DNA of 64,000 bases from Janthinobacterium psychrotolerans. GTDB taxonomy: Bacteria > Pseudomonadota > Gammaproteobacteria > Burkholderiales > Burkholderiaceae_D. Position numbers and translations under genes: made by a program. Shown piece after piece: positions 46,646-54,088 of the stretch; the stretch's first letter is position 1, and the number at the start of each line of letters is the position of its first letter. The notes below the pieces were generated by a model that saw nothing but the letters and a program-made list of their open reading frames with translations, was not told the origin of the DNA and did not search any database. Where the stretch lies: NCBI RefSeq assembly GCF_001677885.1, contig NZ_LOCQ01000050.1, positions 1 through 64,000 on the forward strand, read 5' to 3'.

Positions 46646-46771
46646 GACGAGCCTGAGAAATCTCCGAATTTTCATTGGCCTAATTGAATTCAAGCAAATT
46701 AATTATCAATGGGCAACAAGTTATCTCAAAATAATTGCCGCATTTATTACAAAAACAAGGAATTTACGATA

Positions 46772-49576
46772 ATGGTTGAAAATGTAATGTCGCGCACCGT
46801 GCGCCTCATGTTTGCTGGCAGCATTGCCCTCGGCATGCACGCCGCCTATGCGCAAGAAACAACAGAAGCGCCGATGCAGCGCGTGGAAGTGACCGGTTCG
46901 AGCATCAAGCGTATCGCTTCCGAAGCGTCGCTGCCGGTACAGTCGTTCAATCAGAAAGACATCAAGAAATCCGGCGTCACCACCGTAACCGATTTCATCC
47001 AGCAAATTCCAGCCATGCAAGGCTTTTCCGTGGCGGCCGATTCGGTCGGCGGCGGCGGCGGCGGCGTGACCACGGCCTCGCTGCACGATATCGGTGCTGC
47101 CTACACCCTGGTGCTGCTCAATGGCCGCCGTCTGGCGCCGTCGAACTCGGGCACCACCATCGATCTGAATTCGATTCCACTGGCCGCCATCGAACGCGTT
47201 GAAGTGCTGACCGACGGCGCCTCGGCCCTGTACGGCGCCGACGCGATTGCCGGCGTGATCAACTTCATCCTGAAAAAAGGCGCGGCGCCACTGGAACTGA
47301 ACGCCAAGTATTCGCGTCCTGAAGAAAAAGGCGGCGCCAGCAACTCGTTCTCGATCAGCAAGGGCTTCGGCGATATCGACGACGATGGCTACAGCATCTT
47401 TGTGTCGGCCAGCCATGACGAACAAAAAGCGCTGAAAGCATCGCAGCGCAGCTTCGCACGCAGCGGCATCATCAATTTCAACGATCCAAAAACCGGCCAG
47501 GCGCTGCAGTTCATCAACGGCTCGTCGCGTTCGGCCCCGGCCAACGCCTCGCTGACCTACAAGCCTGGCTACGACGCCTCTGGCGCACCAAGCAAGCTCA
47601 ATCCATACGCTTTGGCCAATGGTGGCAAATGCGCCGCCAGCAATATGGACTTCTATGGCGATGGCAACTGCTACTTCGATTCGCCATCGACGATCGAAAT
47701 CAATCCTGAATCGAAACGCGACTCGCTGTTCAGCTCGGGTTCCATGAAACTGGGCAAGACCGGCTGGCAGGGTTTCTATGACCTGGCCTACACGGAAGCA
47801 AAAATCGTTTCAAGCATCGCACCCTACCCGGCCGACTTTTCGATCGCCAAAGGCTCGGCGCTGTACAACAAGTACATTTCGCCCAACCTGACGGCCGACC
47901 AGAACGCGAACGTCGATTCGGTTGCCGCTACCTACCGCCTGTCCGAAATGGGCAACCGCACCTACGATTACGGCACCAAGGCGACCCACCTTGTCGGCGG
48001 CGTGGAAGGCAGCGCATTCGGCTGGGACATCAATTCCGCCGTGACCTACTCGAAAAACAAGCAGACGCAGAAATACGTCAGCGGTTTCCCTTTGGCCAAC
48101 CAGTTCAACGCGCAGGTCGACGCCGGCAATATCGATCCGTTCGCCTATCCGGTTGGCAGCATGCCTGACGCCATGCGCCAGGCACTGCTGGGTACCGGTT
48201 TCAGCGGCACCTACAACACGCAGACGGTGGAAATGAAGGGCATCGATGGCCGCGCATCGCGCGACGTGTTCAAGCTGCCAGGCGGCACGGCCATGCTGGG
48301 CGTGGGTGCCGACTACCGCAACACCTCGTACAAGGTGCGCCAGGCTGATGTGGCAAAAGAAGCGCAGATCCTGTTTGACAACCCGCAAGTCGACAGCGAT
48401 TACTCGCGCGACAACGCCGGCGCCTATGCCGAGTTGATGATGCCTGTCACCAAGAAACTGGAACTGACCGGTTCGGTCCGCTACGACCAGATCAGCGCCA
48501 TCGACAACAAACTGACCGGTGTCAAGGTCGGCAAGACGGAAGACGCTGCCACCTGGAAAATCAGCGGCAAATATTCGGCTACCCGCAACCTGATGTTCCG
48601 CGCCGCCGCCGGTACGGGCTTCCGCGCCGCCAGCATGCAGGAAATCGCCGGTCCGCTGGAAGACTGGGGCGTCACCGGTGGTAACTACCAGTGCCCGCTG
48701 ACAGCGGCCAACGGCATGGCCGGCCATCCGCTGGCCGCCTACTGCAACAACGTGGGACGCCAGCAATTTGAAGCCTTCCAGGGCGGCAATCCTGACCTGA
48801 AGCCGGAAAAATCGAAGCAGTGGAGCATCGGCACCGTATTCGAACCGTTCGACAGCCTGTCGATGTCGTTCGACCTGTGGAACGTGGAAATCCGCGACCA
48901 GGTGACCTCGGTATCCGAAGGCCTGATCTTTGCCGATCCGGCCAAGTACGCTTCGCTGTTCACCACCAAGCACATCAGCTCGACGGGCCGCGACGTGCTG
49001 GCCATCAAACTGCTGCCAATTAACATCGGCAAGGTGGAAAACCGTGGTATCGACTACGACTTCACCCACAAGATGAAGTTGCTGGACGGCCGCCTGACCA
49101 GCCGCCTGTCGGGGACCTACCTGCTGCGTTCGCGCTACACCACGCCAGGCACCGATGACCAGTGGGAAACCAGCCTGAACCGTTACGGCTCGAACGACAA
49201 GGTCAGCTTCCGCAACATCATCAAAGCGACGACCTCGTATGAAACCGCGAAGTTCACGCATACCCTGAGCGCGAGCTACCGCAACGGCTACACCGACGTC
49301 AATCAAAGCGCGGATGATTGCGCCGTGATCGTCGCCGGCCAGCCAGGCGCCTGCTATGGCGTGCAACTGGAAGTACCGAGCTACACGACGTTCGACCTGC
49401 AAAGCGCTTACCGTCCGGTCAGCAATGTGGAAATCACGGCCGGCATCCTGAACATGTTCGACCGCAATCCACCGTTCACGCTGCGCAATACGGGTTCGCA
49501 CCAGGTTGGCTACAACCCGGCGTACTCGAGCGCCCTGGGCCGCCAGTTCTACCTGAGCGGTTCCTACAAGTTCTAA
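46772..49576 (+). CDS. TonB-dependent receptor B
   Basis: A 934-residue outer membrane receptor related to receptor A (shared opening MQRVEVTGSSIKRI). A signal peptide ends near the AAYAQ motif; the plug contains VLLNGRRLAPSNSG and TDGASALYGADAIAG; the barrel ends SGSYKF. Codon choice is less extreme in GC than its neighbours and closer to highly expressed genes, and the leader is AT-rich, so expression may be high. The ATG at 46772 follows AAGGAA; an ATG five codons later is possible. The substrate is unknown. Confidence 0.9.
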   Translation: MVENVMSRTVRLMFAGSIALGMHAAYAQETTEAPMQRVEVTGSSIKRIASEASLPVQSFNQKDIKKSGVTTVTDFIQQIPAMQGFSVAADSVGGGGGGVTTASLHDIGAAYTLVLLNGRRLAPSNSGTTIDLNSIPLAAIERVEVLTDGASALYGADAIAGVINFILKKGAAPLELNAKYSRPEEKGGASNSFSISKGFGDIDDDGYSIFVSASHDEQKALKASQRSFARSGIINFNDPKTGQALQFINGSSRSAPANASLTYKPGYDASGAPSKLNPYALANGGKCAASNMDFYGDGNCYFDSPSTIEINPESKRDSLFSSGSMKLGKTGWQGFYDLAYTEAKIVSSIAPYPADFSIAKGSALYNKYISPNLTADQNANVDSVAATYRLSEMGNRTYDYGTKATHLVGGVEGSAFGWDINSAVTYSKNKQTQKYVSGFPLANQFNAQVDAGNIDPFAYPVGSMPDAMRQALLGTGFSGTYNTQTVEMKGIDGRASRDVFKLPGGTAMLGVGADYRNTSYKVRQADVAKEAQILFDNPQVDSDYSRDNAGAYAELMMPVTKKLELTGSVRYDQISAIDNKLTGVKVGKTEDAATWKISGKYSATRNLMFRAAAGTGFRAASMQEIAGPLEDWGVTGGNYQCPLTAANGMAGHPLAAYCNNVGRQQFEAFQGGNPDLKPEKSKQWSIGTVFEPFDSLSMSFDLWNVEIRDQVTSVSEGLIFADPAKYASLFTTKHISSTGRDVLAIKLLPINIGKVENRGIDYDFTHKMKLLDGRLTSRLSGTYLLRSRYTTPGTDDQWETSLNRYGSNDKVSFRNIIKATTSYETAKFTHTLSASYRNGYTDVNQSADDCAVIVAGQPGACYGVQLEVPSYTTFDLQSAYRPVSNVEITAGILNMFDRNPPFTLRNTGSHQVGYNPAYSSALGRQFYLSGSYKF

Positions 49577-49652: not shown

Positions 49653-50717
49653 TTACTCCTTGTCGCCCTGCAAGCGGCGCTGCTTCACCGCGGCCGCCAG
49701 ATTTTCCAGCACCGCCACGCTGGCGCTCCAGTCGATGCAGCCGTCGGTGACCGACTGCCCGTAGACCAGTTCCTTGCCCGGCACCAGATCCTGGCGCCCC
49801 GCCACCAGGTGCGACTCGACCATTACGCCAACGATGCGCTCGTCGCCGCCCGCCACTTGCGCGGCGATGTCGGCACAGACGGGCACCTGGTTTTCCGGCT
49901 TTTTCGAGCTGTTCGCATGCGAGGCGTCGATCATCAGGCGCGACGCCAGGCCTTGCGCGGCGATCGCCTTGCAGGCTTCTTCCACGCTGGCCGCGTCGTA
50001 GTTCGGCGTCTTGCCGCCGCGCAGGATGATATGGCAGTCTTCATTGCCGTTGGTCGAGACGATGGCCGAGTGGCCGCCCTTGGTGACCGACAGAAAATGG
50101 TGCGGCTGCGAGGCGGCCTTGATCGCTTCGACGGCGATTTTCACATTGCCGTCGGTGCCGTTCTTGAAGCCGACCGGACAGGACAAGCCCGACGCCAGTT
50201 CGCGGTGCACCTGCGACTCGGTGGTGCGCGCGCCGATCGCGCCCCAGCTGATCAGGTCGGCGATATATTGCGGGCTGATCACGTCCAGAAATTCCGTGCC
50301 GGCCGGCAGGCCCAGTTCATTGATGTCGCGCAGCAGCTCGCGCGCCATGCGCAAGCCGTCGTTAATGCGGAAGCTGTTGTCCATGTACGGGTCATTGATC
50401 AGCCCCTTCCAGCCGACCGTGGTGCGCGGCTTTTCAAAGTACACACGCATGACGATTTCCAGTTCGCCGGCAAAGCGGGCACGCTCCTTGACCAGCAATC
50501 GCGCGTATTCCATCGCCGCCCTGGTGTCGTGGATCGAGCAGGGGCCGATGACCACCATCAGGCGGTCATCCTGGCCATGCAGGATGCGGTGCAGCGCCAC
50601 GCGGGAATCGGCGGCCGTCCGGGAGGCGGCTTCCGAGCAGGCAAATTCGCGGATCAGGTGGGACGGCGGAGTCAATTCCTTCATTTCGCGAATACGCAAA
50701 TCATCGGTGCGGGGCAT
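49653..50717 (-). CDS. aroG: DAHP synthase, class I (first step of the shikimate pathway)
   Basis: A 354-residue enzyme that joins phosphoenolpyruvate and erythrose 4-phosphate to DAHP, the entry to aromatic amino acids. Standard motifs are VVIGPCSIHD, MRVYFEKPRTTVGWKG, LISWGAIGARTTESQ, VGFKNGTDG and the metal ligands in MIDASHAN; the length fits AroF/G/H. The N-terminal extension implies feedback inhibition, but which amino acid binds is not clear from sequence. The ATG at 50717 follows GGAGAAA; a TTG four codons earlier is inside the ribosome site. It is preceded by a Phe/Tyr-rich leader peptide and a terminator, so expression is probably attenuated. The name aroG (versus aroF/aroH) is provisional. 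Confidence 0.93.
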   Translation of the reverse strand: MPRTDDLRIREMKELTPPSHLIREFACSEAASRTAADSRVALHRILHGQDDRLMVVIGPCSIHDTRAAMEYARLLVKERARFAGELEIVMRVYFEKPRTTVGWKGLINDPYMDNSFRINDGLRMARELLRDINELGLPAGTEFLDVISPQYIADLISWGAIGARTTESQVHRELASGLSCPVGFKNGTDGNVKIAVEAIKAASQPHHFLSVTKGGHSAIVSTNGNEDCHIILRGGKTPNYDAASVEEACKAIAAQGLASRLMIDASHANSSKKPENQVPVCADIAAQVAGGDERIVGVMVESHLVAGRQDLVPGKELVYGQSVTDGCIDWSASVAVLENLAAAVKQRRLQGDKE

Positions 50718-50757
50718 TATTTTCTCCAAAATTTGAACAGGGGTAAAACATCCGGGT

Positions 50758-50784
50758 AAAAAAAAACCGCCATCGGTGGCGGTT
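50758..50784 (-). terminator. Attenuator terminator ahead of aroG
   Basis: On the minus strand AACCGCCA, a CCGA loop, TGGCGGTT, then seven or more T residues, 41 bp before the aroG start. The 5' arm ACCGCC could instead pair with GGCGGT inside the last codons of the leader peptide, which would give the competing antiterminator. Confidence 0.85.
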
Positions 50785-50833
50785 TTTCAGAATGTGCTGG
50801 GATCTCGTTTTTTGCTGCTACGTGAACCGACCG

Positions 50834-50911
50834 CTACTCCACCGCCTTTGGGTTGGAATTGCTAAAGTAAAAATAGGCGGTAAAAAAGTGGCGAGCGAAC
50901 ATGCGAGTCAT
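50834..50911 (-). CDS. Phe/Tyr-rich leader peptide of aroG
   Basis: A 25-codon frame (or 22 codons from the second ATG at 50902) that includes FARHFFTAYFYF: five Phe and two Tyr in twelve residues, six Phe/Tyr of them within nine. It ends at a TAG 50 bases ahead of the attenuator hairpin. The arrangement of promoter, aromatic-rich short peptide and terminator equals that of pheA-type attenuation: ribosome stalling at Phe/Tyr codons in starvation would allow the antiterminator and read-through into aroG. The ribosome site is weak (ACGGA). Confidence 0.75.
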   Translation of the reverse strand: MTRMFARHFFTAYFYFSNSNPKAVE

Positions 50912-50927
50912 CCGTAAGTGATGAACG

Positions 50928-50957
50928 ACTATAAACCCATACGGCAAAGCTTGGCAA
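50928..50957 (-). promoter_or_regulatory. Promoter of the aroG leader
   Basis: On the minus strand TTGCCA (50957-50952), 18 bases, TATAGT (50933-50928), 17 bp before the first possible leader start codon. Confidence 0.6.
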
Positions 50958-51226: not shown

Positions 51227-54088
51227 ATGAGCTACAACCTGTCCGCACGTCCGCCTTTCCTCGCACCATCACTACCACCGCTGGGCCTGGCGCTGGCCAG
51301 CACCCTGTTTGCCCTGCCGGCGCTGGCGCAGGATGCCCCCAATGCCGCGCCGATCGCCCGGGTTGAAATCACCGGCTCGAACATCCGCCGCGCCGAGGCG
51401 GAAACGGCGTCGCCCGTGCAGACCCTGAACGCGGCCGATATCGAACGCTCGGGCAAGTCCAGCGTGGCCGAACTGCTGCAAACCCTGGCCGTCGACAACC
51501 AGGGCTCGGTGCCGACCACCTTTGGCGGCGGCTTTGCCTCGGGCGCGTCCGGCATATCGCTGCGCGGCCTGGGCACCTCGTCGACCCTGGTGCTGCTCAA
51601 TGGCCGCCGGGTCGCGCCCTACGGCCTGGCCGACGATGGCCAGAAAGTGTTTGCCGACCTGAACATCATTCCGCTCGAAGCGGTGGAACGGGTGGAAATC
51701 CTCAAGGACGGCGCCTCGGCCATCTATGGCTCGGACGCGATCGCCGGCGTGGTCAACGTGATCCTGCGGCGCGACTTCCAGGGCACCACCGTACGCGGCA
51801 ACTATGGCAAGACGAAGGACTGGGACGGACGCGATGCGCGCGCCGCCATCACGCACGGTTTTGGCGACCTCGACACCGACCGCTACAACGTGCTGCTGAA
51901 TCTCGAATACAGCGAAAAAGCCGTGATCTGGCACCGCGACCGCGCCGGGCGCGGCGCGGTGGGCCGCAGCGACTTGCGCGACCTCGGCTTCAGCGCGCAG
52001 GAGTCCCTGAGCGGCGCCGGCGCCATCACCACCAACAACGCGGCCGGCAGCGCCGTCAACGGCAATGTGCGCAACCCGGCCACGCTCGACTATTACAACC
52101 GCGGCAACCTGGCCGGCGCCGGTTTTACCCGCCTCTTTCCCGGCGCCGCCTGCGGCAACTTCACCAATCACCCGCAGGGCGACCCGGGCGGCGGCTGCCT
52201 GACGGACCCCGCGCAACAATACGGCCAGATCCAGCCCAAGCAGAAGAACATCAATTTCTTCGGCCGCGGCACCTGGCAGCTGACGCCGGCCCTGCAGACC
52301 TATGCCGAGCTGAACCTTTACCACAGCGAATCGACCTCGAGCACCACCCCATCGGCCATCCACAGCTCGGTCGGCTATCCGGGCGGCCCGGTCAGCAATG
52401 CGGCCGTGGCGCTCGGTGCGGCCCACCCGGACAACCCGTATTTCGGCACGGCGGCGCGCATGCGCTACCTGGCCGCCGATGTCGGCCCGCGCGTGTCCGA
52501 CATCGAATCGACCTTTTCGCGGTTTGTCGCCGGCATCAAGGGCACGGCCGCCGGCTGGGATATCGACAGCGCCCTGCTGTACTCGGAAAACAAGGTCTCC
52601 AACGACCGCAACGGCTATTTGCAGCGCGATGTCGCCTTTGCCCTGCTCAACCCCAGCGCGGCCAATGTGGCGGCCGCCAGCCTGAACCCGCGCTACGCCG
52701 CCCTGCCGCCCGGCAGCGTGTGGCGCATTGCCGAAAATGCCGGTCTCAATTCACCGGAACTGTATGGCGCGCTGTCGCCGACCATCTCGAACGACGCGCG
52801 CACGCGCATCGCGCAGATCGACTTCAAGGCCAGCCGCGCCATGGGCAAGCTGGCCGGCGGCGACATGGGCGTGGCGGTGGGCGCGGAGTTCCGGCATGAA
52901 TCGACGCGCCTTGAGCCAACCGCCGGCACCGAGCGCGGCAATATCATCGGCCTCGGTTACTCCGCTTACCGTGGCAGCCGCCGCGCCTCGGCCGTCTATG
53001 CGGAAGTGCTGGCGCCGGTGCTGGCCAACCTGGAGTTGTCGGCCGCGCTGCGCGCCGACCATTTCTCCAGTCTCGGCAACTCCTATACCCCCAAGGTTGG
53101 CGCGAAATGGACGCCGGTGCGCCAGCTGGCGCTGCGCGGCACCTTTGCCAAGGGCTTCAGGGCGCCGAACGCGGCCGAAAACGGCGTCGGCGGCCTGGCC
53201 GCGTTTTCCACCGCATCCGACCCCGTTCGTTGTGCGCTGGGGGTGGAAGTGGCGTGCGATCCGGCCTCGATCGCCGTGATCACCTCGCCCAATCCCGACC
53301 TGGCGCCCGAGCGCTCACGCAGCTATTCGCTGGGCGCCGTGTGGGACCCGCTGCCGCGCACCAGCGTGTCGGTCGACCTGTGGCAGATCCGGCGCAAGAA
53401 TGAAATCAACCAGGAGCAGACCGACGCCGCGATCGCCGCCGGCAACGTCGCGCGCGACCCGTCCACCGCCACCGGCATCCCCGGCGATCCGGGCGCCATC
53501 ACGGCCGTGCTGGCCAGCTATGTCAATTCGGCGCAAACCAAGGTGCGCGGCGTCGATATCGACGCGCGCCAGCGCTTTGTGCTGGGCGGCGACATGGGCA
53601 ACCTGGTCTTCGATGTGAAATGGACCCATCTGTTCAAATGGCTGCGCATCGAGCGCGACGGCTCAGAACGCGATTTCGCCGGCACCCATGGCAACTGCGA
53701 CGTCTCGAACTGCATGGGCACACCCGACGACCGGGTCAACCTGGGCGCCACCTGGGAGCGGCGCAACTGGCGCGTGTCGGCCAACGTCAACTACCGCGCG
53801 CCGCTGGACAATGTGCTGTTCAAGAACGACCCCGACGGCTGCGCCACTCACTACGCCAATGGCAACGACGCACCGGGCGGCTGCCGCCTCGCCTCGTTTA
53901 CAACAATCGACCTGACGGGGCGCTGGCTGGCCACGCCGCAGCTGGAAGTGTTTGCCTCGGTGCAGAACCTGTTCGACAAGGTCGCGCCGCTCGATCCGCT
54001 GACGTATGGCGCGACAGGCTACAACCCGCTCGATTATGCGGGTGCGGCGGGGCGGTTTATCAGTGCGGGGTTGAAGTATAAATTCTGA
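51227..54088 (+). CDS. TonB-dependent receptor C
   Basis: A 953-residue outer membrane receptor of the same subfamily as A and B (opening RVEITGSNIRRAEAE). Signal peptide to about 35 (LPALAQ), plug with VLLNGRRVAPYG and KDGASAIYGSDAIAG, and a barrel ending ISAGLKYKF. It has several Cys pairs in extracellular loops (AACGNF..GGGC; VRCALGVEVAC; GNCDVSNC), hinting at disulfide-locked surface loops. The ATG follows GGAGAA. The substrate is unknown. Confidence 0.9.
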   Translation: MSYNLSARPPFLAPSLPPLGLALASTLFALPALAQDAPNAAPIARVEITGSNIRRAEAETASPVQTLNAADIERSGKSSVAELLQTLAVDNQGSVPTTFGGGFASGASGISLRGLGTSSTLVLLNGRRVAPYGLADDGQKVFADLNIIPLEAVERVEILKDGASAIYGSDAIAGVVNVILRRDFQGTTVRGNYGKTKDWDGRDARAAITHGFGDLDTDRYNVLLNLEYSEKAVIWHRDRAGRGAVGRSDLRDLGFSAQESLSGAGAITTNNAAGSAVNGNVRNPATLDYYNRGNLAGAGFTRLFPGAACGNFTNHPQGDPGGGCLTDPAQQYGQIQPKQKNINFFGRGTWQLTPALQTYAELNLYHSESTSSTTPSAIHSSVGYPGGPVSNAAVALGAAHPDNPYFGTAARMRYLAADVGPRVSDIESTFSRFVAGIKGTAAGWDIDSALLYSENKVSNDRNGYLQRDVAFALLNPSAANVAAASLNPRYAALPPGSVWRIAENAGLNSPELYGALSPTISNDARTRIAQIDFKASRAMGKLAGGDMGVAVGAEFRHESTRLEPTAGTERGNIIGLGYSAYRGSRRASAVYAEVLAPVLANLELSAALRADHFSSLGNSYTPKVGAKWTPVRQLALRGTFAKGFRAPNAAENGVGGLAAFSTASDPVRCALGVEVACDPASIAVITSPNPDLAPERSRSYSLGAVWDPLPRTSVSVDLWQIRRKNEINQEQTDAAIAAGNVARDPSTATGIPGDPGAITAVLASYVNSAQTKVRGVDIDARQRFVLGGDMGNLVFDVKWTHLFKWLRIERDGSERDFAGTHGNCDVSNCMGTPDDRVNLGATWERRNWRVSANVNYRAPLDNVLFKNDPDGCATHYANGNDAPGGCRLASFTTIDLTGRWLATPQLEVFASVQNLFDKVAPLDPLTYGATGYNPLDYAGAAGRFISAGLKYKF

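Follow-up and report, generated by a model that had tools for sequence, protein, structure and literature searches.

A putative aromatic leader peptide precedes aroG

The aroG gene of the window (the whole 64,000-nucleotide stretch of DNA that was analysed) is preceded by an element (minus strand, 50717-50957) that we interpret, with a probability of about 0.87, as a classical ribosome-mediated transcription attenuator controlling aroG through an aromatic leader peptide. Judged from its sequence, such an element would most likely allow more DAHP synthase to be made when charged Phe-tRNA, and perhaps Tyr-tRNA, runs short. In minus-strand order, it comprises TTGCCA, 18 nt, TATAGT, 25 nt, the leader frame, a 46-nt linker, a hairpin, nine Ts and aroG. 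The TTGCCA-N18-TATAGT promoter, the frame of 22-25 codons and the perfect hairpin with a T-run 41 bp before the gene all lie on the minus strand where a first-pass annotation had placed them. The gene itself (49653-50717, minus strand; ATG at 50717 behind GGAG) encodes an AroG-type DAHP synthase that matches NCBIfam NF006723 at 582.2 bits (cut-off 568). Its best solved relatives are DAHP synthases, the Phe-sensitive enzyme among them, and the nearest named relative found is from a Janthinobacterium (97%). A second DAHP synthase with ~50% identity to AroG is encoded in the genome.

The putative promoter, a promoter-like site ~210 nt upstream of aroG, combines TTGCCA (50957-50952) and TATAGT (50933-50928) across an 18-nt spacer and carries 10 of the 12 consensus letters; one site this good was found in 1 kb, against 0.5 expected. 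Relatives share it: among the 86 unique upstream regions of detector-positive loci in L001-L088, L090, L093 and L101 (the detector is defined below), 68 have TTGCCA together with a -10 match, with a spacer of 18 nt in 65/68 and TATAGT in 64/68.

The leader frame (50902-50834, minus strand; stop codon TAG at 50836-50834) reads ATG TTC GCT CGC CAC TTT TTT ACC GCC TAT TTT TAC TTT AGC AAT TCC AAC CCA AAG GCG GTG GAG TAG and encodes MFARHFFTAYFYFSNSNPKAVE. Phe or Tyr make up 7 of its 22 residues, with aromatic residues at F6, F7, Y10, F11, Y12 and F13. Translation most likely starts at ATG 50902, giving 22 codons, and not at ATG 50911. The upstream ATG was rejected on comparison of 23 unique leaders of the MFAR type, in which position -9, that of the upstream ATG, holds ATG in 17 cases and ATA, ATT, ATC or TGA in 6, and GGA, which favours 50902, stands 8 nt before the second ATG in all 19 of the 23 for which upstream sequence was inspected. 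More broadly, GGA, AGG or GAG precedes the ATG in 46 of the 64 distinct leaders of L001-L088. By eye, L111, L120, L177, L192, L206, L212 and L220 show a TACxAT-like -10 element whose end lies only ~6-10 nt ahead of the leader ATG; with a -10 element so near the ATG, the leader transcript would be leaderless in these several other families.

Predicted alternative helices in the leader RNA

Region 1 (ACCGCC, 50881-50876, leader codons T8-A9) can pair with region 2 (GGCGGT, 50846-50841), which extends from the last base of K19 to V21 and provides the 5' arm of the antiterminator. Region 3 (ACCGCC, 50783-50778) is common to the antiterminator (2:3) and the terminator (3:4), and region 4 (GGCGGT, 50771-50766) lies within the latter; all are read on the minus strand. 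The intrinsic terminator (50787-50758) is a perfect hairpin with an 11-bp stem and a CCGA loop, AAAAACCGCCA-CCGA-TGGCGGTTTTT (50787-50762), then nine Ts; the T-run ends at 50758, about 40-41 nt from the aroG ATG at 50717. A generic terminator scan listed the hairpin in its plus-strand version only. The complementarity of the GGCGGT at the end of the leader to the ACCGCC in the 5' arm of the terminator was confirmed, and the 2:3 pairing and the terminator are as first described; an additional 1:2 helix, which had escaped that description, is present in the minimum-energy fold of the window's leader. The predicted helices 1:2, 2:3 and 3:4 are mutually exclusive, 3:4 being the intrinsic terminator before aroG, and with the 1:2 pairing found, the layout of a ribosome-controlled attenuator is complete. 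The leader as a whole is not unusually stable (z = -1.31; 17/200 shuffles fold equally well or better).

In the proposed mechanism, a ribosome supplied with charged Phe-tRNA (and Tyr-tRNA) would read through F6, F7, Y10, F11, Y12 and F13 and cover region 2, upon which region 3 would pair with region 4 and transcription would stop. Under a shortage of charged tRNA, it would stall on the aromatic codons and cover region 1; regions 2 and 3 would then pair, and with this antiterminator formed, transcription would continue into aroG. Were the leader not translated, 1:2 and 3:4 would form and transcription would stop.

The switch was modelled in 24 leaders by cutting the RNA before region 4 and masking a ribosome footprint codon by codon, with three footprint sizes. 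In silico, mean P(2:3) was 0.86-0.88 with the ribosome on aromatic codons, compared with 0.35-0.36 three to eight codons further on, and P(2:3) was higher on aromatic codons than beyond them in 24/24 leaders with each of the three footprints, if barely so in some; L220 was nearly flat and hardly switches in this model. For the window's leader, the single-ribosome model gives a P(2:3) of ~0.85 at F6, F7 and Y10 and of ~0.16 at F11-F13, the latter being low because region 2 can then pair with the upstream segment that the ribosome has freed. When the smallest footprint was assumed, the antiterminator was no longer favoured at Y10. The effective stall codons of this leader would be F6, F7 and, depending on the footprint, Y10, while stalls at F11-F13 would bring about little antitermination unless a following ribosome kept the upstream segment covered. 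Placing the ribosome on the stop codon brought P(2:3) back to at least 0.98 in 5/24 leaders (L064, L111, L157, L192 and L212). Without a ribosome, P(2:3) averaged 0.57 over the 24 leaders, was 0.11 in the window's leader and reached at least 0.9 in eight; the 1:2 helix is therefore not general, and for many families the model does not predict termination in the untranslated state.

Conservation among relatives

Conservation of the element was assessed with a detector that calls a frame 10-45 codons long in which a stretch of ten residues includes at least five F, Y or W, followed by an intrinsic terminator within 130 nt and at most 350 nt from the gene. It was positive in 108/110 loci of the close set (L001-L110, the window itself and some repeated species included), corresponding to 105/107 distinct upstream regions; the two misses are L047, without a leader, and L106, with a disrupted leader frame. 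In L106 (Candidatus Burkholderia humilis), the terminator is kept although the frame is disrupted relative to its kin. None of 1,190 dinucleotide shuffles (five per locus, 238 loci) was positive, so the arrangement is more than chance. Comparison thereby bears out the short frame proposed in the first-pass annotation, since the lack of conservation that would have spoken against it was not seen: nearly all close kin keep the F/Y-rich frame together with the promoter, region 2 and the terminator, and beyond them the layout recurs with diverged sequences. In a sample of 120 genomes from the order, AroG-type genes (best match at least 59% identity) were present in 79 genomes as 89 copies, and the detector was positive in 23/79 genomes, 12/32 families and 23/89 copies, leaving 56/79 genomes negative. 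The upstream regions of this sample were mostly 750 nt long, and five were 450 nt. L119, with an aromatic leader and an imperfect terminator, scored negative. Genome G057 has tandem AroG-type genes ~70 nt apart (L120 and L121), with a leader and terminator before the first only. Upstream of the other DAHP synthase paralogue (~50% identical), 0/20 regions were positive (14 were 450 nt long and the other 6 were 750 nt). A class-level sample contributed 29 new loci from its best-scoring places, 28 of them outside the order, and among these 28, one (L241) has an aromatic-rich leader and a terminator under a looser rule.

Because leaders diverge between families, covariation was assessed by flank permutation instead of a covariance model. 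Between families, the first flank of regions 2 and 3 is T-A in 9, C-G in 7, T-G in 1 and unpaired in 3 (n = 20; permutation P = 0.010, relatedness ignored), and the third flank gives P = 0.006, with relatedness likewise ignored; covariation is absent from the second (middle) flank (permutation P = 1.0). With one sequence per family (11 families, f1 left aside), the first flank pairs in 10/11 (5 T-A, 4 C-G and 1 T-G). The first flank of the terminator is paired in 20/20, as ten T-A and ten C-G. The 2:3 helix is present in the minimum-energy fold of 34/34 segments cut at its two arms (mean z = -2.65, outer helix included), and the antiterminator interior is weakly better than shuffles (mean z = -0.70; 22/32 negative). 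An extended inner antiterminator helix was set aside, since the z of -2.65 shrank to this mean of -0.70 once the interior alone was shuffled. An antiterminator exclusive with the terminator has comparative support from the 2:3 folds and the covariation at the first and third flanks. These data bear on another explanation, in which the terminator either acts constitutively or is under the control of a protein or Rho, with the short frame as a by-product and the region only damping aroG expression. A strong terminator can stand alone, and the untranslated RNA of many families is not predicted to terminate, both of which speak for such a scheme; against it stand the close packing of the aromatic codons and their distance to region 2, together with the 2:3 covariation and a layout that recurs in diverged families, and we regard it as improbable. 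Ribosome-mediated attenuation of the pheA/pheS type ahead of aroG, the reading first given to this region, is supported by the anatomy of the element and by its conservation in close kin and in 12/32 families.

In relatives, aroG is often downstream of tldD. Of the long loci in which tldD lies upstream of aroG on the same strand, 58 carry the attenuator and have tldD-aroG gaps of at least 242 nt; in the 11 that lack it, the gap is 37-206 nt, apart from L106 (339 nt). Since the attenuator cannot fit into a small gap, this pattern is not independent evidence. In L047 and L151 (Oxalobacteraceae group), aroG lies 37 nt after tldD and the attenuator is absent, suggesting that it may have been lost with fusion of aroG into the tldD transcript. 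In the window, a TonB-dependent receptor gene (51227-54088, plus strand) sits between tldD and aroG, and a second large gene of this kind (46709-49576, plus strand) lies on the other side, so that the two flank aroG. Elsewhere in the window, an Rfam traJ-II match was recorded at 2771-2878 on the minus strand (42.7 bits; gathering score 40). BLAST for a second copy of the element in the genome matched the window only, in a search that diverged copies would escape, and no relative was matched in a plasmid collection.

Leader composition and the amino acids that may be sensed

Mixed Phe, Tyr and Trp codons are the most unusual feature of the element. Of 90 unique detected leaders, one of which (from L146) is a wrongly picked frame, 89 contain F, 86 contain Y and 35 contain W. 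Ten of the 12 positive families have at least one leader with Trp; the window's leader has no Trp codon. Burkholderiaceae leaders are of the type MSAKFYFYFFWHLRPLADREGC, and one Massilia leader is MRHAVFFTFYFWFSHSSPTAVE. Position -11 is Tyr in 31, Trp in 6 and His in 1 of 38 unique leaders chosen for an AVE ending (drawn from L001-L088, L090, L093 and L101); in the same leaders, position -13 is Tyr, Phe, His or Trp, and positions -16 and -10 are always Phe, encoded by TTT in 38/38. Across 106 unique leader sequences, TTT outnumbers TTC by 364 to 133, whereas five genes of the window together have 38 TTT and 61 TTC. In 40/40 chosen representatives, region 2 begins 8-20 nt (median 14) after the start of the last aromatic codon, which is roughly where a ribosome placed on this codon would have its leading edge.

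The peptide could conceivably matter in itself, as a functional small protein whose own transcript is ended by the terminator. Its aromatic core is hydrophobic, and the C-terminus SNSNPKAVE is kept in close kin; this conservation, however, coincides with region 2, where the 38/38 leaders chosen for the AVE ending share GCG GTG GAG, and between families the C-terminus varies while the complementarity of region 2 stays. A known small-protein family was sought for six leaders in NCBIfam and Pfam, and nothing convincing was returned, one NCBIfam line being at chance level (E = 0.18). We consider a functional small protein very unlikely.

Sensing of Phe by the aroG leader is likely and sensing of Tyr plausible, whereas sensing of Trp could apply in relatives only, because the window's leader has no Trp codon. 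That both Phe and Tyr are read is what we infer, and it is put cautiously because, according to passages of PMC11802643, Tyr is without effect on Corynebacterium glutamicum aroR-aroF despite its F-Y-F leader. The same observation favours a narrower explanation in which the attenuator senses Phe only, with Tyr codons that are either tolerated or suit the RNA structure, and relief follows Phe-tRNA shortage alone; F6 and F7 are also the robust stalls of the window model, Y10 being footprint-dependent. This explanation is possible yet somewhat doubtful, as Y is nearly as common as F in the 90 unique leaders and only Trp or His replace Tyr at -11. A broader proposal is that of a pan-aromatic attenuator, in which one Burkholderiales leader would read Phe, Tyr and, in some leaders, Trp, integrating three end products at the entry enzyme of the shikimate pathway, with a leaderless start in several families; we offer it tentatively, at somewhat short of even odds.

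Comparison with known regulatory systems

A comparative study (PMC5343134) reports that many gammaproteobacterial groups have conserved TrpR and TyrR and that both are absent from other classes. The TrpR family (PF01371) had no match in the genome, with the E. coli control positive, and the TyrR HTH domain (PF18024) had two matches, both below the cut-off (best 24.3 versus 27 bits). Repression of the DAHP synthase by TyrR or TrpR would call for one of them to be encoded in the genome, which these searches do not indicate. Of the contrast that had been drawn with enteric control, the part concerning TyrR and TrpR fits the genome, in which no clear genes for them were found; attenuation of a DAHP synthase, by contrast, has a precedent in C. 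glutamicum and a predicted one in Vibrio. The element suggests how, at the level of RNA, flux into aromatic biosynthesis could be controlled in Burkholderiales that do without the enteric TyrR and TrpR repressors. It is also a testable example in which a single leader peptide may integrate two or three of the aromatic amino acids. A new Rfam family could be warranted, and the engineering of aromatic production in Burkholderiales could benefit.

Membership of Rfam Phe_leader (RF01859) was rejected, the element scoring 22 bits (gathering score 55), and no other Rfam family reached its gathering threshold on the element, nine loose-scan matches all being below their gathering scores. No description of an aroG attenuator in Betaproteobacteria was found in open-access PMC text, a result that does not establish its absence from print, and the words aroG and DAHP are absent from the main text of PMC2965389, PMC5688073, PMC7011215 and PMC4603805.

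The thrL (Thr/Ile) and ilvL (Ile/Val/Leu) leaders each read several end products of connected pathways; the multi-amino-acid principle would be alike here, and the end products read by the aroG leader would be aromatic amino acids. The E. coli pheA and pheST attenuators work through alternative hairpins, and the C. glutamicum aroR-aroF attenuator was reportedly described by Neshat et al. in 2014. As outlined in PMC11802643, a Phe leader peptide (pheL for pheA) couples expression of E. coli pheA and pheST to charged Phe-tRNA, and to that extent their working principle is the same as that proposed for aroG. The E. coli genes encode chorismate mutase/prephenate dehydratase or Phe-tRNA synthetase, whereas here the product is a DAHP synthase; compared with both these systems and Rfam Phe_leader, the aroG leader has mixed Phe and Tyr codons, and the leaders of relatives also Trp. 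Closer in target is C. glutamicum aroR-aroF, where a Phe-Tyr-Phe leader likewise precedes a DAHP synthase gene and attenuation is relieved under Phe limitation, with no effect of Tyr (as given in parts of PMC11802643 and PMC4046766); its host is an actinobacterium. Putative attenuators, drawn from a web database, have likewise been predicted before a proteobacterial DAHP synthase operon, the DAHP synthase > tyrA operon of Vibrio (PMC1173090, Table 7), which involves another paralogue and operon than aroG and for which the text around that table gives no leader peptide. With these E. coli, C. glutamicum and Vibrio precedents, the aroG element would belong to a known kind of attenuator. Its proposed mechanism and its target class are preceded by E. 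coli pheA/pheST and C. glutamicum aroR-aroF, and what is new is the widespread Burkholderiales aroG case.
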